DNA of 64,000 nucleotides from Capillidium heterosporum (Eukaryota; Entomophthoromycota; Entomophthoromycetes; Entomophthorales; Capillidiaceae), in assembly GCA_016630905.1 (NCBI GenBank), contig WBMQ01000007.1, positions 1,572,858 to 1,636,857 of the forward strand, given 5' to 3'. The translations under genes were made by a program, and so were the position numbers. A model generated the notes under the pieces. The model saw nothing but the letters and a program-made list of their open reading frames with translations. It was not told the origin of the DNA and made no database searches. Positions within the stretch are counted from its first letter, which is position 1; the number at the start of each line of letters is the position of its first letter. Below are positions 69 through 54,431 of this stretch, piece after piece.

Positions 69-992
69 ATGATCCTTATCGCCAAAACTCAACTTCAAAA
101 CCTAGCTTTGAGCTTCCTTTTAATCAACCTAATAACTTCATCACCAGTCCCTCAGACTGATGACTCAAGTAACTTATATCCATTGAACAGCTTCCCCAAC
201 ATCAACGAAAGCAACTTTCAAATCCCAAGTGGTAATGGCCAATCCGACCCATCCTTATCAACTTCTTCAATAGCTAGCTTGATTCCAACTGATAGTTCAA
301 GTCCTTCTTTGGCAATATCTACTGACAGTCCGACTTTAGCTACTGATTCATTTATACCTACTGACAGTATATCTTTTCCAACTAATAGTTTAGTAACGAG
401 TTCCGATATCAGTATCAGTTTCCCAACTGATCAACTTGCAAGTAGCGGAAGTGTTCTACCAACTGGAACTATAGTTCCAACTGATAGTTCACTTCCAAGT
501 GACTTTTCCTATCCTACCAATAGCGTTCCTACTGATTCCTTGTACCCAATTGCGAGCGATAGTAACATAGTTCCAACTGATACCTCTTATCCTACCAATG
601 TCCCAGTCTCTAGTAGTGCTGTTCCTACTGATTCCCTATACCCGATCGCAAGCGAAAGCAGTCTAATTCCAAGTGACACTTCTTATCCTACCGATGTGCC
701 AATATCTAGTCCTGTACTTCCTACTGATCAACCACTATTCACATCTACTGAAGCAGTACCATCTCCTAGCTACGACAGTTTGAGTACCCGACCTACTAAG
801 AGATCTAGATCTAAGAAGACTAAAAAGACCAGAACTAGAACTTCGGTTGATGTCTATCCTACTGCTACTGGATATCCCGTTGATTCTCAAGTCCCTACTC
901 CTATAGTATCGACTAGCTATCCGGTATCATCGCAGGTTAATCCTAATCCTAATCCTAATCCTAACCTAGTGGCAATCAAAACTTGGATGTGA
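69..992 (+). CDS. Secreted Ser/Thr/Pro-rich protein with PTDS repeats; tail frameshifted
   Basis: Secreted or cell-wall protein of unknown function. The first ATG is at 69; translation from 60 would need GTG. Residues 1 to about 25 form a signal peptide (basic start, hydrophobic core LALSFLLINLI, then TSSPVP). The body is built of degenerate PTDS/PTDTSYPT repeats, including two copies of PTDSLYPIAS. A basic stretch TKRSRSKKTKKTRTRT offers a Kex2-like KR site. The frame ends at 992 in a (CCTAAT)n tract. Immediately downstream, in the +2 frame (about 971-1084), the DNA encodes three 11-residue repeats like NQALDVFWATK and then stops. The same repeat ends the secreted protein at 23245, so the true C-terminus is probably out of frame here. 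No GT-AG intron I tested restores the frame. The 307-residue form listed is the literal open frame. Confidence 0.75.
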   Translation: MILIAKTQLQNLALSFLLINLITSSPVPQTDDSSNLYPLNSFPNINESNFQIPSGNGQSDPSLSTSSIASLIPTDSSSPSLAISTDSPTLATDSFIPTDSISFPTNSLVTSSDISISFPTDQLASSGSVLPTGTIVPTDSSLPSDFSYPTNSVPTDSLYPIASDSNIVPTDTSYPTNVPVSSSAVPTDSLYPIASESSLIPSDTSYPTDVPISSPVLPTDQPLFTSTEAVPSPSYDSLSTRPTKRSRSKKTKKTRTRTSVDVYPTATGYPVDSQVPTPIVSTSYPVSSQVNPNPNPNPNLVAIKTWM

Positions 993-1084
993 TGTGGGCC
1001 ACCAAAAACCAAGCTTTAGATGTCTTTTGGGCCACCAAGAACCAGGCCCTAGATGTCTTTTGGGCTGTCAAGAACAAGAAATAA
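971..1084 (+). pseudogene. Out-of-frame C-terminal repeat tail of the gene at 69
   Basis: In this frame the DNA reads NQNLDVMWATK, NQALDVFWATK, NQALDVFWAVK, NKK, stop: three near-perfect 11-residue repeats. It has no start codon of its own. It matches the tail of the protein at 23245 (NQPLDVKWAVK, DQDLDPMWAANK). It is best read as the original C-terminus of the upstream gene, separated by a one-base indel in or near the CCTAAT repeat at 938-966. A sequencing error would give the same picture. Confidence 0.65.
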
Positions 1085-4348: not shown

Positions 4349-5581
4349 ATGAAATACAACTTTACTCTACTTGCCCTGGTCCTAGTGCTTGGACTTGTCA
4401 AAAGTGACCAAGTTCAAGCCGACAACTCCAACTTGAACCAAGTCTTCAACGATGTTGCCAAGCAGTACGGTGTAGAAGCTAACGTCCAAACCTCGGACGT
4501 CAAGGAAACTTCCAACTTACAGCCTGAAGCTAAACCTAACACTGCCAATCAGGATCAGGTCGCTAAGGACGTTACTAAGGATGTCAAACCCGATACCAAA
4601 TCCCAGGAGCCTAAGCCTGAAGTTAAGACTGATGACTTGAACGATGTCAAAGTTGAAGAGAAGTCTGAAGTTAAGACTGACGACTTGAACGATGTTAAAG
4701 CCAAGGAGAAGCCTGAAGTCAAAACTGATGACTTGAACGATGTCAAAGCTGAGGAGAAGTCTGAAGTTAAACCTGAGGTGAATGCTGACGTCCAAACTGG
4801 CGATGGCCAGAAATCTGAAGACAAGCCGGAAGTCTCCCAAGATCAGGAGCAGATCTTCAAGGATGTTGCCAACCAGTACCAAGTCGAGTCTCTAGAACAA
4901 AAGCCTGAAGCTAAAGCTGACGAAAAGGTTGCTGACTCTGAGAAATCTCTTTCTGCCAGCGTTACCTCCAAGTTGCCTACCGAACCCGTCACTCGAACCA
5001 TCCTTCCCCAGCCTACCTCCAACCCACCTTCCAACTTGGACATCAAGGAGGATGCCAAGGTAGCTACCCCTGAGAAGAAGGTTGAGCAGGCCTTAGATGT
5101 CTACTGGGCCGTACCTCAGTTAAAGACGGATATCTATTGGGCTTTGAAGACTGGTAGCCCTACCGTCATCCCTCCCGCTGTACCTACCCCTGAAGCTCCT
5201 CAGTCTAAGGTTAAGTGCAGCAAGAAGGCCGAAGCTGTCTCAACTGTTGAGCCTACTCCCATCTCCACCACTGGCTCTGCAGCGGTCGAATCCTCAGCCA
5301 CTGAAGCAACCCCTACCTCCCAAGCCTCTACCGATGCTGTTGTTAGCACTACTTCGACTTCCAGCGTTTCCGCCTCGACCACTTCCAAAGTTGCCACTTC
5401 TACTACCACTTCAGTAAGCGTAGCTGCCCTCGAGGACCAAGCTCCCCAACCTACCGATGAGGTCAAGGTTGAAGGTGAAGGCAGTACTGATGTCGTTGCT
5501 AATCAGCAGAAACCAGAAGCTGAAGTCGTAGTTGAAGATAAGCCTCAGGTCGTCGCTGGTGAGGACAAGGTCGAGAACTAG
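4349..5581 (+). CDS. Secreted repeat protein with Lys/Glu-rich repeats and Ser/Thr-rich C-terminus
   Basis: Predicted secreted or wall-associated protein of 410 residues, function unknown. The start is the ATG at 4349; the frame is open from a TTG at 4334, but the signal peptide MKYNFTLLALVLVLGLVKS begins at this ATG. Order of parts: signal peptide (1-20); NQVFNDVAKQYGVE (about 31-44); a charged region with three tandem 16-residue repeats of the type KTDDLNDVK(A/V)(E/K)EK(S/P)EV; a second copy of the first motif (QIFKDVANQYQVE); a short aromatic block ALDVYWAVPQLKTDIYWALK; then a long Ser/Thr/Ala/Val region and an acidic end. The aromatic block matches the WA-K repeats of the proteins at 69 and 23245. 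Codon use is richer in C-ending codons than in its neighbours, suggesting strong expression. A decayed tandem paralogue lies 2.2 kb downstream. Confidence 0.85.
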   Translation: MKYNFTLLALVLVLGLVKSDQVQADNSNLNQVFNDVAKQYGVEANVQTSDVKETSNLQPEAKPNTANQDQVAKDVTKDVKPDTKSQEPKPEVKTDDLNDVKVEEKSEVKTDDLNDVKAKEKPEVKTDDLNDVKAEEKSEVKPEVNADVQTGDGQKSEDKPEVSQDQEQIFKDVANQYQVESLEQKPEAKADEKVADSEKSLSASVTSKLPTEPVTRTILPQPTSNPPSNLDIKEDAKVATPEKKVEQALDVYWAVPQLKTDIYWALKTGSPTVIPPAVPTPEAPQSKVKCSKKAEAVSTVEPTPISTTGSAAVESSATEATPTSQASTDAVVSTTSTSSVSASTTSKVATSTTTSVSVAALEDQAPQPTDEVKVEGEGSTDVVANQQKPEAEVVVEDKPQVVAGEDKVEN

Positions 5582-6560: not shown

Positions 6561-7259
6561 ATGAAATATAACCCAATTTTGCTCGCCCTGGTCCTAATAC
6601 TTGGTTACATCAAGGGAGATCAAGTCCAAGCCGACAATTCCAACTTGAATTAAGTTTTCAAGGGCGTCACTAAGCAGTACCATGTAGAAGATACCTTCCA
6701 GAGCTTCAATATTAAGGAAACTGCTAACCAACAACTTGGAGTTAAACCCAACCCTGTCAATCAAAACTAGGCCTGCTCAGAACATCTTTTCTCAGCCTAT
6801 CACCAATCTAGCTTCCAACTTGGATTTCAAGGAAGATGCTAAAGGAACTACTCACGAGAAGGTTGAGCAATACCTCAGCTGAAGATCAATGTCTATTATG
6901 CTTTGAAGACCAAGAACTTTGCTGCTACTCCAGCACCTATTCCTTATTATACCTATTCTAAGGTTAGGTGTAGCAAGACTGAACTTACTCCGGTACCTGG
7001 CCTTATCCTCACTACCGACACTGTAACTGTTGAGTCTTTGGATGTTGATGTGATTCCTACCTCCAAAGCTTCAACTATTACCACAGCTATTATATCGATG
7101 TCCATCACTTCCAAAGCTGTTATTTCTACTACTGTAGCAAATGTAATTAATTTTAAAGATCAAGTTCCCTAATCTACTGATGAGGGGTATGTTGTTGTCA
7201 AAATGGTAGCTGAAGGTGAAGCTCAAGTTGCTGTTAGTGAAGACAAGGCCAAAAGCTAA
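6561..7259 (+). pseudogene. Decayed tandem copy of the 4349 secreted-protein gene
   Basis: It starts MKYNPILLALVLILGYIKGDQ and then VQADNSNLN, matching the gene at 4349 position for position, and ends with a region like its C-terminus (TDEG, then AEGEAQVAVSEDKAK, stop at 7257-7259). It is broken by stops where the parent has Gln: CAA to TAA after NSNLN, CAG to TAG after NQN, and CAA to TAA after DQVP. The block with the KTDDLNDVK repeats is missing and there is a frame change near 6875 (PQLKINVYYALK lies in another frame). The stop at 7170-7172 ends the longest surviving frame (6903-7172). All three nonsense changes are C to T at CpA. The TATA box is also altered. Almost certainly non-functional. 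Confidence 0.85.
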
Positions 7260-9458: not shown

Positions 9459-12400
9459 TTACAGCTCCAAGTTGATCTCCACTACAAACTCCAGCCCTAA
9501 GTAACAGTCATTCAGTACAGAGACTACGAGTCCCTTCTTGAAGTAGCTTTCCAGAGCCAAGAAACTCAACTCGAACTTCAGCTTGGTCATGTCCTTCAAC
9601 TTACTTCCAGCTGCAGGTTCGGGGACGCTGACTCTTCTGAAAGTTAAGACTTCGTTGCGCTCGGGGTCGGCCAAAGTTACCCAGAACACTTCACTTTGGA
9701 ATTTGGTCAGACCGGGACAGTACGCCTTTCCAGTGTAAGGACGGTTGCGCTTGACTTCTAAAGTTCCAGTAAGGTGGTTGACTACATTCAACTGCACCTT
9801 CATCCGCTTACTACTTTCATCCACTTGGTCGAACTTGATCTGAGTTTTAGGCAAAAGATCTAAAGCATCCATCAATTTTGCAGCCGGTTGACTATCCAGC
9901 TTCAATACTCTGACTGTATCCAGCTGTTGGCTTCTAGTAGAGTACACCAACTTAGCTAGGTAATCGATACGAAGTTTCGTACTAGCCAACTTCTCCAACT
10001 GCTTGTCATCTTCGACGTAAGGTAAAGTGAGTAAAGATGGCTGATCCGGCCATCTACCCTGCCGTACCGCTTGCAACGCTGACCCCACCATTAGTAAAGT
10101 ATCCAGATACCCTAGGTAAGCAGCGACGTCGGCCATAGCCTGCAAAATACGTACCGCCTGATCCAAAATGGAGCCGGTATCGGTTACATAGTCGGGCATG
10201 GGGAGGGGGTAGTGGCTCAAGTGGGCCATAACTAGAAGCAAAGCCTTGGCGTGGGGGGAGTCGTAAGCTCTTGGAGCGACATCGTAAGGTAGCTGACGCT
10301 CCAATTCCTGGTTGACCAAATCCTCGTTGTGGCGCACGGCATGCTCCTCGTACTCAACGCTGTCACATAGGATGCCGAGAATGGCAGGCAAAGCAAGGTC
10401 AGGCTTCAACTGGTGGTAAAAGTTGCGGATGGTGGCGTGGCTCAAATAGTAGAAGGAGGCAATCTTACCCAGCTTGGTAGGCTTGATAGCGTCAAAGCTG
10501 CTGCCCTCAGAGTCGGGTTCAATACACTTGGCATCCATCAGCTTGTCAAAGGTGCGATCTACCAAAGCGGAGAGGTACTTGTTGACGCTAACGTCTTCAC
10601 CATCCTCCATGCCGTAGTACGACGGATTCATACGTAGGCGCTGGTACAAATAAGTCCAGGTCAGATAGTCCATGGCGTCCTGCTTTGATCGTACACTCTT
10701 GGCCACGATTTCAGCTAGCATATGGTCATCCAAACAGGTGTGCAAACTGGATTCCACGGGGAAGGGCTCATGCAAAAACTTCTTGAAGAAGTTCTTCTTC
10801 TTGTCGGTAACCAAGATGCGTGCTATGCCCGAGGTGTCGAACTGGGGTCGACCGGCTCTTCCCATCATCTGCAGAATGTCGGTTACTGGGTAGTCTACGT
10901 ACCCCTTTGTCTTGGCATCGTAATACTCGGTACCTTTGACTACGACCAAGTGGGCCGGGAAGTTGACTCCCCAAGCCAAAGTCGACGTAGCTACCAGCAC
11001 CTGGATCTTGTTGTTGCAAAATAGTTCCTCGACTACTCTTCTGTCACCTTCCGTCAACCCAGCATGATGTAGGCCGATACCGAAGCTCAACGTCGCTTTC
11101 AAGCTGGCGTCCTGAATCCCTACCAGCAGCATCTCCAGCTCCTCCTCGTTCAATTTCAAGAACTGCCTTGGATTTTCCTCGTTGCCACAATAGGCTATCA
11201 AATCCTGAGCCGTCAAGCGGGTCTGCCTACGTGAACTTACGAAGACAATTACCGGTTGGTTGGGGGAGTGGGTTCGAATAGCTTTGTAGGTGGGTCGGTT
11301 CATGGAAGCCATGCGGGGGCAGTAGTGCTTGCCGCTAAAACCGTCGATGTAGACCTCTAAAGGTACAGGACGCACCGAATGGCGGAAATTGAAGAGCCCC
11401 GTAGTGTTGATGTTCAGCCACCCTGCCAGATCGACAGCGTTGGCCAAGGCAGTAGATAGACCGACCTACCCGCACCTGCTTCTTGGTATGGTTGGCGATG
11501 TAGTTCATCCTACTTACAATAACCTCCAGGATAGGTCCACGGTCGCCACCCAGCAAGTGGATCTCGTCGATTATCACCAAGACCACCTTGCGTACGTAAG
11601 CTCGTGAATGCCACCCACGTGAGATACCATCCCATTTCTCAGGGGTAGTGATGATGATATCCGCCTTCTCCAAAGTCTTCAAGTCGGGCGTGATATCCCC
11701 GGTCAACTCGACCAACGTCTTACCCATGGGACCAACTAAACGCTTACGCCAATCGGCAACTCGTTCTCGGACTAAGGCCTTGAGTGGAGCTACGTAGACG
11801 ACTTTGCCGTTGGGGTTGTCCCTGAAGGCAGCCCACATGGCCAGTTCGGCAGCCATTGTCTTTCCGGAACCGGTCGGCGCACCTAATAGTACGTTCTCCG
11901 TATCATGATACAACTTGTAGAAGACTTGGGTCTGCACCGGGTTGAAGTGGCTGAACCTTTTGGTGCAGATTTCCTCCAAAGTTGGGTTATTCAAGGCACT
12001 TATTGGCAGTGGGCGCAAATTCAATAGGTCGGTATGCTGGGGGAGTAACTTGGGCAGGATCAAGTGCTGGAAAGAGACTGGTTTCAAAGTTTCTGCGCCG
12101 ATCCACCGATCAGATATAGCTCTTATGAATATCTGGTTGGGGAGTGGCTCGACGATAGGTATAGTAAATTTGAGCTGCAACGGCGTGTTGATCGTCTTTT
12201 TGTGCAAAATGAAGGACTCCGAGTGGTACAGCTCCATTTGGTCAGTGTCTTCGACCCACAACCACCAGTGGTCGGCGTGCCCGTGTACTTTGTCATCCCA
12301 TTCAAAGTCGGGAGTTATGGTAACACTAACTCTCAGTACTGTTCGTGTAATTGGATAGATGTCCACTTGCAAATCGACGGTAGGAAACTGCTGCACGCAT

Positions 12401-15400
12401 CTAGCTAGGGTAGGCCCCATCCTTGCGAACCTAACCATATCGCCCAGCTCTGAAGAAGACATAGTCCTCAGCTCTTCAATAGATACTTGGTGGGTGATTC
12501 CTTCCAGTTTAGCCCTGATGTCCATCGGGAGGTCGAACTGGCACAGTGGGTGCTCAAAGGACCACATGCGTCGCTCGATGGACTTGCATAGCGACAGCAA
12601 GACGGCGGCAGTAGGCCCCCAGTTTCGATTCAAAGCAATCTCAAACACAGCTCGTAAGATTCTCCCCGCATTCTGAGCAATGTAGTTGATATCACTTACC
12701 AAGGCAAAGTCCTCGGGGTAAGCCTTGGAAATGTACGACTGCATCAGCACGTTCACTTTATCGGCTGGCCCGTTGATTCCGTTGGCCAGGTGGCAGGCAC
12801 AGTTATCCTTCAACATCTTGTTCAACTCAACGATCTCGTTGTCTCGAACTTTGATGTTCTCAAACTCTTTACTGCTGCTGACCATGTTGAAGACGTTGGC
12901 TTCCGCCATGCGACTACGCATCTTGCTGTTCATAATCTCGACGGAATTATTGGAAAGGTAGTAAAGACTTGAAATACGACCCAGGTCCTTGGGGGTCAGG
13001 TACCCGGTCGCTGGATCGAATACGATCATCTGGTTGTCCATCAATGTCTTGGCAGCCGATACAATTAATTCACGTCTACGGTTGCTCAGAGATGGGTCAT
13101 CCTGGGCCTCCTCGTAATCAACCCCATAAATCATGGGGTTTCGCTTCATCCGCACATAGAGGAAGGTATAGCTCAACCAGGTGACAGCCTCATCAACGTT
13201 AGTTACGGTACCTAGACAAATCTCGGCACACAGGTTGTCAACTAGGTTACCGATGAATCCAGATTCGATGGGATGCTGTTGGGTAATCGCTGACACGTAG
13301 TGGGCTAACTTGTCCCCCGTCGTAAGGATGTACCCCACGCCATGGGTCTCATACTGGGGACGACCAGCACGACCAAAGATCTGGAGGACATCCAAAATGG
13401 ACAAGTCGACGAAGGAACCCTTCTGGGAATCATAGACCTGAGTACCACGGATGATTACGGCGTAGGCTGGCAAGTTGACACCCCAGGCAAGCGTAGCCGT
13501 ACAGCACAGTAACTTTAGGGCACCGTTGGCAAACATCTTCTCGGTCAAGTTACGGTCCGACCTTAGCATACCGGCGTTGTGGACTCCGATGCAGTTCTTG
13601 TACAGCATACGCAGTTCACCGTTACGTGAGCTAGAGACTTCCCGGCTGTGTAAAGTATGGGCTTCCAAGTTGGACTCGTTGGGGGTGAAAAGATCCATGC
13701 ACCCGTCAGCAGCCGCCATCTCCAGCATAGCTTTGGCGACTCGAACCGTCTCCTTACGCGTGTGGACGAAGATCATGACTTGGTGACCTTCAGCTAGCAG
13801 AGCCTGACACTTTTCGAAGCAGGCGCGATCCAAGTTCAAGTTGCTGGCGTTGGACCCTGGTTTTCCACGCACACCCAAAAAGTGCTGCTCCAGGGGTACG
13901 GGCCTAAACCCTCCATCAAAGTAGAACAGACCTTGGTACGGGGAAACTTTCAAGAACTGGGCCACGTCCAAGTAGTTGGGTAAGGTGGCCGACAGCCCGA
14001 CGATTCGAATCATGGATTGGGTAGCTTCGACTTGGCGCAACGTTCGAGCGACAATGCTTTCAATGACGGACCCTCTCGAATCGTGGAGTAGATGCACCTC
14101 ATCGATGATCAACAGCTTGATCTTCTGCACGAGTTCGGTATCACCGGTACCTTTCCTAGTAACAACGTCCCACTTCTCTGGTGTTGTAACTATGATCTGG
14201 GTATTTAGTATTTCAGCTTTGCTTAGCTGCATATCTCCGGTCAACTCACGGACTTGAATCCCCAGCCATTTCAACCGACTACCCATCTTGACAACGACTT
14301 CAGCAGCTAGAGCCTTCATAGGAGCTACGTAAACAATCTTGAAGGCCGACCTCTGGATCCGCAAAGCTGAGGCGTTGTCAGGAGTGGGAGGGGGTGAGCA
14401 GTACAGAGATAGGGTACGGAGGATGGTGAGCATGGCGACGTCCGTTTTACCGGCACCAGTAGGTGCACATAGCAACATGTTCTCGTTGGTCTTGTAGGCG
14501 ATAGGGTAGACGATTGATTGGACTCGGTTTAGTGATTTGTAGCCCTACATTTAACAAGACATTAGGGATTTAAATAGATAAAAATTTACCTTGAACGAGT
14601 TTTTGCAGAGAGAATCCATATCCTCTAACAACACTGTTTTCTCGGTTGTACGCGGTGGCGCCCTGCTGGTGATTGGGATCGTCAGCTCGTCGTAAAACTG
14701 AAATTTGATTAGCCAGCTGTAAATTGTATCCAAGACTTACTTCTCCATTGACACGCTCGGTGCCTTTAGGCAATACGAATTTGGAACCGAACATCGATAG
14801 AGAACTATTGGAAGTATCGGCAGCCTGATATATATTAGGATAGTCGTGCCCCTTTGTCTATCAAAACAAATGTAAATATCTGTAACTAGGGTTAAAAGCA
14901 GTACCTTTGAAAAGGCAGGATGAAATAACGATGGAAGGAGTCTGATTTAAAGCTTCTTCTCGGATACGGCGTAGCTCCGAAGAATCAAGAATAAAACTGC
15001 TGTTCTTATCTAATTAAAATACATGAATAAAAAGCAAAGTCAATTGTAAATACCTTGGCTCGTACCCTTGTTAGCCTGAGCTCCCTTTTTGATATCTTTA
15101 CGTAGTTTCTTCAGCTCCTTCTTTTCCGACTCAGTCATAATCGTAACCTGGGCTCCAAACTGACCTCTATTTCCATTGCTAAGCTCTTTGACCCGCTGTC
15201 TTTGTTTCTGTAAACTGTTCCCAAATTCATCAGTATTTAGCTAAAAATGGATAAGTATTTGATAAGGAGAGGGTGCGTACCTTAGCTGATAGAAGTAGGT
15301 TGAGTTGGTCACGGTGCTGTATCAATGCGTAGAGGAAGTCCATATGGTCGAAACCCAGCCATTCCAACAAGTTCTCTTGGATTGAATCGTCTGAATCGTT

Positions 15401-23244: not shown

Positions 23245-23811
23245 ATGAAGTATAGCTTAGTATCGATAACCATTTCCGTAGTCCTAGGTGCCTCTCTGCC
23301 TATTACTGACAAGGACCTGTTGGATGTTTTGAACGCGCCAACTAATGCCAACACAAATCCATTCGCCCAGCCACCAGCTCAAGCTAGTGCTCCTTTTATC
23401 TTCGGCTCACCTACCTTTAACAACAACAATAACCTAGCTAATTCGGACATTTCTGATCTATCCAAACTTCCCAAACCCAACACTTATGACTCCACTGCTT
23501 CCGATATATCCGACCTATCCAAACTCCCCATATTCAATGACTCCAACCTAAATGGCAATGACCTTCCCTTACCTAGCCTTGCCGACAATTCGAACTCAGA
23601 TTTACCTTTTAAGTCAGATAAAGTTGACCCATTCGACTTTCCAGATATACCCTCCCAAAATTCAATAAGCGTTGGTGATACTTCACCCATCAAAGATGAC
23701 AGTAAGGACATCAACTGGGCTGTAAAGAACCAACCGCTGGACGTCAAATGGGCCGTCAAAGACCAAGATTTAGACCCAATGTGGGCCGCCAACAAGGTTA
23801 AAAAGATTTGA
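23245..23811 (+). CDS. Secreted protein with C-terminal W-A-x-K repeats
   Basis: Single-exon protein of 188 residues, function unknown. The signal peptide is MKYSLVSITISVVLGASLP (about 1-17), a start very similar to MKYN at 4349. The mature part is rich in Asn, Asp, Pro and Ser, with two copies of SDISDLSKLP (about residues 66-92). The last 35 residues carry three repeats, DINWAVK, NQPLDVKWAVK and DQDLDPMWAANK, ending VKKI. The same unit occurs three times out of frame behind the gene at 69 and twice in the protein at 4349. There are no cysteines and no dibasic KR site between the repeats, so Kex2 release of peptides is not indicated. A strong TATA box precedes it. Confidence 0.85.
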   Translation: MKYSLVSITISVVLGASLPITDKDLLDVLNAPTNANTNPFAQPPAQASAPFIFGSPTFNNNNNLANSDISDLSKLPKPNTYDSTASDISDLSKLPIFNDSNLNGNDLPLPSLADNSNSDLPFKSDKVDPFDFPDIPSQNSISVGDTSPIKDDSKDINWAVKNQPLDVKWAVKDQDLDPMWAANKVKKI

Positions 23812-52277: not shown

Positions 52278-54431
52278 TTACAACTTGATGGGATTATCAA
52301 AGGACTCTTTAGTCTCAACGACGCTGACCCTAGTCTTCTTGAACACCTTGCTACGGATCTTGGAGATCAACGTCTGATCCAAAGTTTCAGTCCGGGTACC
52401 GAACACCATGAGTAAAACTAAGAGCACGGCGATACTAATTAGTAGACCAGCCCAATCGGGGTACAATCCATAACCTAGCGGTAGGTATCCAAAAACGCAC
52501 GATACTAAGAGAACTAGGACGGCGTAAGCAGACTGGGATTTGATGTGCGTACGTACGGGGAGTTTAACAGCCATACAGGTCAGAATACTAGTAGCTGAGA
52601 TGGGTGAGTTCAAATCACCAAACACGGCCCCCGAGAATACAGAGCTGACCGTATATACTAGGTTGGTATCGGACTCGGTGTCTGCAACTAAGGGCATTAC
52701 CAACGGAAGCATGATGGTCATAGTTCCCCAAGAAGTGCCAGTACTGAAGGAAATAATTGCAGACAACAAGCAGGACAGGAACGGGATTAGGGCGGGGTTC
52801 AGGTTCCCTTTAAGGGCACTGATCATGAATGTGGAGACACCTAAATCGTTGAAACAGTCGGCTACACCCCAAGCGAAGACTAAGATGAGCATGGTCTCGA
52901 CCATATCCTTGATACCATACATCATGACCTCCATACCGACCTGGAATCGAATGACGTTCTGGAAATGGTACATAACTAGACACAGGAGGCAGCTGAAGAA
53001 GGAGGCGTACAGCAAAGCACCGTAGGAGTCACCAGCACCAGCTATAGTCGCCAGATCAAAAGTTGGATTCTCGCCTCTTTCAGCCTGGTTTACCAGTTCG
53101 TAGTATCCGGTTACCAACAGGCCAACTATAGTTAAGACAATAATGGAAAAGATGGGTAGTAGGGAGTTGACTAGACGTTTAGGCAAGCTGGGGTCTGATT
53201 TGAGGGGATCCTCCTTAACTTCCTCAATGGTAGTAGTGTTGACTTCGACGACCGAGCCTTCAAAGTAAGCGCGACGCTCTGCCTCTAACATGATACCAAA
53301 GTCTCGTTTAGTTATCAATAGCAGGCCACAGAAGATGATGGCCAATATGGGGAAGAAGCGGCTGGGGATAGTTCTTACAAAGAAGAGGAAGGGCTCTGAG
53401 TCGATCTTCAAGATGGTGAACTGGGTGGCAATCAGTCCCAACATGAAACCGATCCAGGAGGATATGGGGGACAATGAGGTCAGAGGTGCCGAAGTGACAT
53501 GGACGATGAAAGCCAGCTTTTCTCTGCTCAAGGACAGTTTGTCGGTAACACCCAACATATTGGCACCGACAACCATACAACTAGCCAGATCGTCCAAGAA
53601 CAGGATGATGCCTATGATGAAGGTAGCCCACTGACCCTTCCATCGGGTCGTAGCTAGTTTAGTAACGGCGTTGGTAAGTGCTTCAGCACCACCACTCTTC
53701 TGGATGAGGGATACACACGACGACAGGTAAAAGGTGAACATAATAACCTTGGCGTGGTCAGCATTGGCTAGAGCTCGGATGGTGTAGTAATCTAAAGTGC
53801 GCAAGAACCCAGTCAGAGGGTTGAAACCATTGATGAAGGTTGCTGAGATGAAGACACCCAAAAGCAGGGCCAAGGTAGCTTGCGAGGACAGTAAGGCGAC
53901 CAGTAGTACGACCAAGATAGGTAGGAGGGTAACTGGGGCAGGCATACCGTGGATGATACCGTTGAAGGAAGCAAACTCCTGGCCGTTGTTGGAGAGTACA
54001 ACCCAAATCTTACGTTGCACATTGTTGGTAACTTGCAAATCACTAACCAGGTAACCGGACAAGTAGTCACCCTGGGTGATTGTGCTAGTAACCTTGACTT
54101 CGGAACCTTGGCTGGCAGTTAAGTTTCCCGTACCGATGACGGTGGTTGTATCCTTGGTCCACCCTTCCAAGACTTGGTAAGTGATTGTGGGGCTGGCAGT
54201 CACTATTGGGAGACAAAGTTAGTATTTTGAATTGACATGTGAGTAGTTACCATTTTTCCAGCTCAAAGTGATATCGAGGTTCAAGAGGTAGTTGTAGAGG
54301 ACTACCTTGGGCAAGTTGACGGAGTCTAAGCTCGGTAGGTTGGAGTCGAGTTTCGAGGCATCTTGCGTTAGTACGGTTGATAGGTAGAAGGTTAGTAGCG
54401 TGAGTAGGTAGCTTGGTACCACAAGTTTCAT
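52278..54431 (-). CDS. NhaC-family Na+/H+ antiporter with secreted N-terminal domain
   Basis: Ion:proton antiporter of the NhaC superfamily, best known in bacteria. Two exons, 54431-54251 and 54202-52278, with a 48-nt intron; 701 residues. The signal peptide MKLVVPSYLLTLLTFYLSTV precedes an external domain of about 130 residues (VTASPTITYQVLEGW, GDYLSGYLV, NVQRKIWVVLSNNGQEF). About 12 membrane helices follow. NhaC-like signatures: GVFISATFINGFNPLTG, ADHAKVIMFTFYLSSCVSLI, ILFLDDLASCMVVGANM, DKLSLSREKLAFIVHVTSAP then LTSLSPISSW, and near the end SFSTGTSWGTMTIMLPLVMP with SSVFSGAVFGDLNSPIS. The Asp pair in FLDDL is the likely ion site. A loop of about 60 residues with acidic residues (EEVKEDPLKSD) separates the two halves. 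Intact. Confidence 0.9.

Follow-up and report, generated by a model that had tools for sequence, protein, structure and literature searches.

Organization of the locus

Three genes for secreted-type proteins in the 64-kb stretch of DNA analyzed here (the window, which forms the right end of contig C42) are associated with short tandem arrays of a DxxWAxK-type unit (Table 1). The first-pass annotation had placed three units behind gene 69, two in the 4349 protein, and three in the 23245 protein, and all eight are indeed present. The array of 4349 is internal, and one of its two units lacks the K. A fourth locus, the 6561 remnant, matches the 4349 protein in two stretches (60% and 45% identity) and is interrupted by one TAG and two TAA codons; as had been described before, it retains just a trace of the repeat, in which D has been replaced by N and W by Y.

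Table 1. Positions of the DxxWAxK-repeat genes and their units (window coordinates, unless a contig is named)
Feature	Position	Strand	Description
Gene 69 ORF	69..992	+	S/T/N/P-rich body with PTDSxYP-type repeats; stops just after the tail begins in the other frame
Three 11-aa units behind gene 69	983..1081 (983-1015, 1016-1048, 1049-1081)	+	Frame differs from ORF 69-992; stop at 1082-1084
Gene 4349	4349..5581	+	410-aa secreted-type protein, leader MKYNFTLLALVLVLG
Two units within the 4349 protein	5093..5158 (5093-5125, 5126-5158)	+	
6561 remnant	6561..7253	+	Disrupted 4349 copy, with the repeat trace at 6885-6908
Gene 23245	23245..23811	+	188-aa secreted-type protein, C-terminal array
Three units of the 23245 protein	23704..23802 (23704-23736, 23737-23769, 23770-23802)	+	
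222-aa family gene	C42:1570696-1571361 (1.5 kb left of the window)	minus	Eight units in sets of 2, 2, and 4
179-aa family gene	C32:821378-821914		Four units

A small gene family within the genome

The genome (29.5 Mb in 44 contigs) was searched with the tail peptide, the whole proteins, the array of the gene on contig C32, and two degenerate DNA patterns. Further genomic copies, for which the first-pass annotation had proposed a search, were found in the form of two more array genes, encoding proteins of 222 and 179 aa. The tally reached by these searches, which scored the best candidates alone and might thus miss divergent copies, is five genes and one remnant (6561), with 20 units at two to eight per gene; five of the six loci fall inside 26 kb close to the right end of C42. 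The strict degenerate pattern gave 6 matches genome-wide, all in family genes, and 3 in its reversed control. The looser pattern gave 26, of which 17 lie in family genes and 9 elsewhere, with 9 in the control as well; no array was seen among the nine outside the family when they were read in their open frames. In short, a small family of DxxWAxK-repeat genes is real in this genome.

Build of the encoded proteins

Residues 6 to 22 contain the strongest hydrophobic stretch of each of the five proteins (crude hydropathy test), and Ser, Thr, Asn, and Pro together account for 30 to 52% of the residues, in agreement with the secreted-type leader and S/T/N/P-rich body described in the first pass. The same hydropathy test revealed no comparable stretch after residue 40 or within the last 40 residues of the five proteins. 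Similarly, a hydrophobic C-terminal GPI signal was not found, as hydropathy averaged over 9 residues peaks at no more than 1.09 within the C-terminal 40 (gene 69 was taken here as its ORF, minus the out-of-frame tail). These profiles thus give no sign of a membrane anchor or a GPI anchor. In Pir proteins, a Kex2 site is present and the C-terminus has a Cys pattern; with zero or one Cys per protein, none of the five has a C-terminus of that type. In four of them the array extends to, or near to, the C-terminus.

The bodies are rich in either Ser/Thr/Asn/Pro or Lys/Glu, and each protein has its own. Tandem repeats unlike the tail unit occur in the bodies of gene 69 (525-728, 96 bp) and 4349 (4613-4770, 48 bp). 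The proteins had initially been called otherwise unlike, which is true of these bodies but not of the leaders, which are partly related and fall into two groups, {69, 222-aa gene, 179-aa gene} and {4349, 23245}. Specifically, the leader of gene 69 aligns with those of both genes outside the window (0 of 500 shuffles as good), the leaders of the 179-aa and 222-aa genes align with each other at p = 0.02, and those of 4349 and 23245 do so at p = 0.006, with the six cross-group pairs giving one p value of 0.044 and five of 0.09 to 0.60 (shuffles; 15 pairs tested, uncorrected). A 252-aa secreted-type protein, encoded at L064:1333-2091 (C42:1538544-1539299), contains PTDSGYPxDSVA-type repeats and a His/Lys-rich stretch and has no W-A unit; it shares body repeats with gene 69, and 0 of 500 shuffles were as good as the alignment of its leader with the leader of the C32 gene.

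The close TATA boxes that had been pointed out are also there: TATAWA is found 51 to 83 bases before the ATG in five genes, the background being 7.7% of 45-base stretches drawn at random from the window, and no TATAWA is found within 130 bases of the 6561 remnant. From its sequences, the family looks modular, each member apparently combining a leader, an exchangeable low-complexity body, and a shared tail.

The frame change in gene 69

The units behind gene 69 cannot be reached from the ORF by simple readthrough of one frame, and the tail frame has stops directly upstream of the units. A GT-AG intron joining the two parts was considered and rejected: with the sole AG available as an acceptor, which lies after the last stop of the tail frame and before the first unit, just one GT (542) of the 44 at 70-969 is in the right phase, and its use would delete 428 bases of the repeat-coding ORF (the check covered GT-AG introns alone). 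Inspection by eye for programmed frameshifting found no canonical slippery heptamer at the frame change. Because the C-terminus that the tail encodes is still basic, as in three relatives, the out-of-frame position reflects either a recent frameshift or an assembly error.

Frame changes are not confined to this gene. An ASCC3/Slh1-like helicase gene (9459-14478, minus strand) changes frame near 11.4 kb, within a conserved stretch, and so falls into two ORFs; the cause is an assembly indel or a real break. The very end of the contig (60966-64000) is taken up by about 50 copies of a satellite of about 58 bp, the unit of which holds the palindrome-like AGTAGCCCTTCGGGCTACT; its larger arrays contain 6 to 16% indels, and it is perhaps subtelomeric, or a low-quality contig end. 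Since the helicase is also frame-split and the satellite is indel rich, an assembly error at gene 69 is plausible; the split helicase favors indels without proving them.

The repeat unit

The consensus unit has 11 residues, x-D-[VTI]-x-W-A-x-[KR]-x-x-x, and the period is 11 aa in each array, with linkers separating the three sets of the 222-aa protein. Five D-x-x-W-A pairs at 11-residue spacing occur in the window, versus none in 200 dinucleotide-preserving shuffles of it. Across the 20 units (the degenerate 6561 trace was excluded), D at position 2, W at position 5, and A at position 6 are each found in 20/20, an invariance that is partly by construction, as the units were gathered via the D-x-x-W-A pattern; this core is accompanied by a basic residue at position 8 in 18 of the 20 (K in 16, R in 2). 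Position 3 is V (14 units), T (3), I (2), or P (1), and position 7 is V in 12 of 20; positions 9 and 10 are less strict (N or D, 6 each, and Q in 11, respectively), and any residue is found at position 4 (N 6, M 4, others) and at position 11. Of the motif originally proposed, [NQ]-x-[LI]-D-x-x-W-A-x-K, the D-x-x-W-A core thus stands, but the [LI] before D does not (L in 11 of 20 units, with K, N, Q, T, or E in the remaining nine), and neither does [NQ] two places further left, which is not general.

The D codons (GAT 14, GAC 6) and A codons (GCC 9, GCT 8, GCA 2, GCG 1) of the 20 units vary silently, with a pS of 0.83 at the D, W, and A codons; for this reason, the units look old and kept at the protein level. 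For the seven core codons taken together, pN/pS is 0.34; for the four that do not encode D, W, or A, where constraint is weak, it is 0.67. The latter value would suit a neutral origin, in which slippage and duplication expanded low-complexity sequence to no function, as would the presence of tandem repeats in the bodies and the state of two loci, 6561 being broken and gene 69 maybe frame-broken. Such an origin is nevertheless hard to reconcile with a D-x-x-W-A core that is kept across two contigs despite high silent divergence, and with TATA boxes and leaders that are kept as well, and we regard it as very improbable.

Could the arrays be a self-assembly element? Each unit might form a beta strand, with L-x-V-x-W-x-V on one face, followed by a short turn, and the units might stack, inside one molecule as well as from one molecule to the next, into sheets or fibrils. 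The alternating hydrophobic pattern and the period of 11 agree with this, and the hydrophobic moment of the strand type exceeds that of shuffles at p values of 0.038 to 0.044 in three of the seven arrays and of 0.075 to 0.18 in the other four, compared with 0.09 to 0.52 for the helix-type moment. However, these effects are weak, with no correction for the seven tests made, position 4 is free, 4349 has just two units, and the single structure model of fair confidence (pLDDT 80), that of the gene 69 tail (37 residues, with three aligned sequences as input), is a lone helix. We consider self-assembly unlikely. The predicted structure of the whole 23245 protein has a mean pLDDT of 46, and structure prediction is uninformative. 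With positions 3 and 7 mostly V and position 4 free, the unit would resemble a short docking motif.

Searches for relatives

In line with the first-pass annotation, which knew of no family with this element, no known family matches in Pfam, NCBIfam, the PDB, bacterial/archaeal or viral contigs, or a large protein database. At cut-off, the Pfam and NCBIfam profiles (the latter made for bacteria and archaea) matched none of the five proteins; two weak matches, with E values of 0.04 and 0.094, remained below it. One search of the large protein database, which includes proteins of three entomophthoralean fungi (Neoconidiobolus thromboides, Entomophthora muscae, and Massospora cicadina), scored 7994 candidates, none at E ≤ 1, and we infer that low-complexity words dominated it. 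Restricted to the array, the search of this database returned one candidate and no match at E ≤ 10; it reaches proteins of 98 to 313 aa that share short words, and distant relatives could escape it. None of the pattern matches in bacterial/archaeal contigs (29) and viral contigs (16) was confirmed with the 24-residue query, a length at which tblastn is weak. The PDB yielded nothing for the array of the 179-aa protein, and a profile retrieved two mesothelin chains at chance level (E values of 1.1 and 1.4). Among the matches listed in literature searches, none concerned a DxxWAxK-type motif, and the passages on secreted and repeat proteins in PMC12387763 and PMC11105155 make no mention of such proteins. 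The best reading of these results is that the DxxWAxK proteins probably represent a small, lineage-specific family, as yet without a name, whose members are probably secreted.

The window also encodes an NhaC-type Na+/H+ antiporter (52278-53945), the best named matches of which are from N. thromboides (67%), E. muscae (59%), and M. cicadina (54%) (best 120 of 734). Among the matches listed, Entomophthorales are the top named ones, followed by bacteria and a few algae and protists, with many entries bearing no name; this pattern could reflect an old gene transfer. Judged by this one gene, the fungus most likely belongs to the Entomophthorales.

Many Entomophthorales are insect pathogens, and the family might consist of host-directed repetitive effectors that bind, for example, an insect or microbial target. 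The proteins are of secreted type, their genes are clustered, their bodies are unlike, and one copy is broken; in addition, the nearest named proteins of the neighboring antiporter, among the matches listed, are from Entomophthorales. What is conserved, though, is the tag and not the body, and an effector role strikes us as very unlikely.

A possible docking tag

A leader, a presumably flexible body, a repeated motif with a fixed aromatic core, and no anchor: because of this combination, the family fits a reading in which the array serves as a multivalent docking tag of a lineage-specific secreted family. This is the reading that we tentatively prefer, at somewhat less than an even chance, its function and partner being inferred. 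The proteins would leave the cell, and the body, probably O-glycosylated, would act as a flexible spacer. All D-x-x-W-A-x-K units would recognize a single site, located on a partner in the wall or outside the cell or else on other copies, such that copy number would set avidity and a single tag could fix unlike bodies to one place. The first-pass annotation had suggested a tag for wall binding or self-assembly, and either role would be compatible with these features. Counting against a docking tag are the lack of any relative outside this genome in the searches made, the internal position of the two-unit 4349 array, the gene 69 tail, which is out of frame in the assembly, the weak constraint at the four other core codons, the partly constructed invariance of D, W, and A, and the uninformative structure predictions.

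A more far-reaching version makes D-x-x-W-A-x-K a novel multivalent code for sorting or anchoring, specific to this lineage: repeats of one short motif would tie secreted proteins with unlike bodies to the same component of the wall or mucilage, a role that GPI anchors or Pir repeats fill elsewhere. We find this doubtful. If the tag does anchor, it would explain how unlike secreted proteins stay at one place, and it would supply a transferable signal for surface display in a group of fungi for which genetic tools are few. If it does not, the result is still an orphan family, cleanly delimited, from a fungal lineage that branched off early. Orphan secreted proteins with repeats are common in fungi.

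Comparison with known systems

In layout, the family comes close to the Kex2-processed repeat proteins (KEPs), which, in the relevant passages of PMC7329392, are described as having a leader peptide, a low-complexity pro-region, and tandem short repeats and as forming small families. According to the same passages, they include yeast alpha-factor precursors and the precursors of ustiloxin-type RiPPs, Zoopagomycota is the phylum richest in them per strain, and they are recognized by at least three tandem repeats of 8 or more aa between KR, KK, RK, or RR sites. As a candidate for the signal peptide of KEPs, hydropathy shows an N-terminal hydrophobic stretch in 5/5 of our proteins. In contrast to KEPs, the DxxWAxK units have no dibasic sites separating them, and just one such site lies inside the seven arrays. 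By a script that tabulated dibasic sites, used in place of the published detection program, three of the arrays in the 69 tail, 4349, 23245, and the 179-aa protein contain no dibasic site and the fourth contains one, so that none shows the site pattern of a KEP. In the 222-aa protein, no dibasic site lies within any of the three sets, and sites at residues 60, 93, 133, and 219 to 221 lie around and between these sets of 2, 2, and 4 units. The repeated secreted peptide that the first-pass annotation offered as one option is accordingly not supported, as a product of Kex2-type processing, for four of the five proteins, and may yet apply to the 222-aa protein. As for a marker of ustiloxin-type RiPPs, DUF3328/UstYa, the genome has no PF11807 match, but neither do 14 control genomes.

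These comparisons bear on whether the family encodes precursors of secreted signal peptides, with cleavage at single Lys or Arg residues separating the units or at the dibasic sites that separate the sets of the 222-aa protein. The leader, spacer, and tandem units are laid out as in peptide precursors, position 8 offers the basic residue, a dibasic site follows several arrays, and those at residues 93 and 133 fall between the three sets of the 222-aa protein, which may release whole sets. On the other hand, four of the five proteins do not have units flanked by dibasic sites in the way that the published criterion demands, units differ within one protein, and the K is missing from one of the two in 4349; precursors of this kind seem to us distinctly unlikely.

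Other comparable systems are wall-bound or repetitive secreted proteins. The Pir cell-wall proteins of yeasts, as portrayed in PMC8975586, are likewise secreted, internally repeated, and wall-linked, but their repeat sequence differs. The repetitive secreted effector Rsp3 of Ustilago maydis, as presented in PMC5923269, is similar by description in being a secreted repeat protein. The DxxWAxK family belongs to a general category that is already known: fungal orphan proteins that are secreted and contain repeats.
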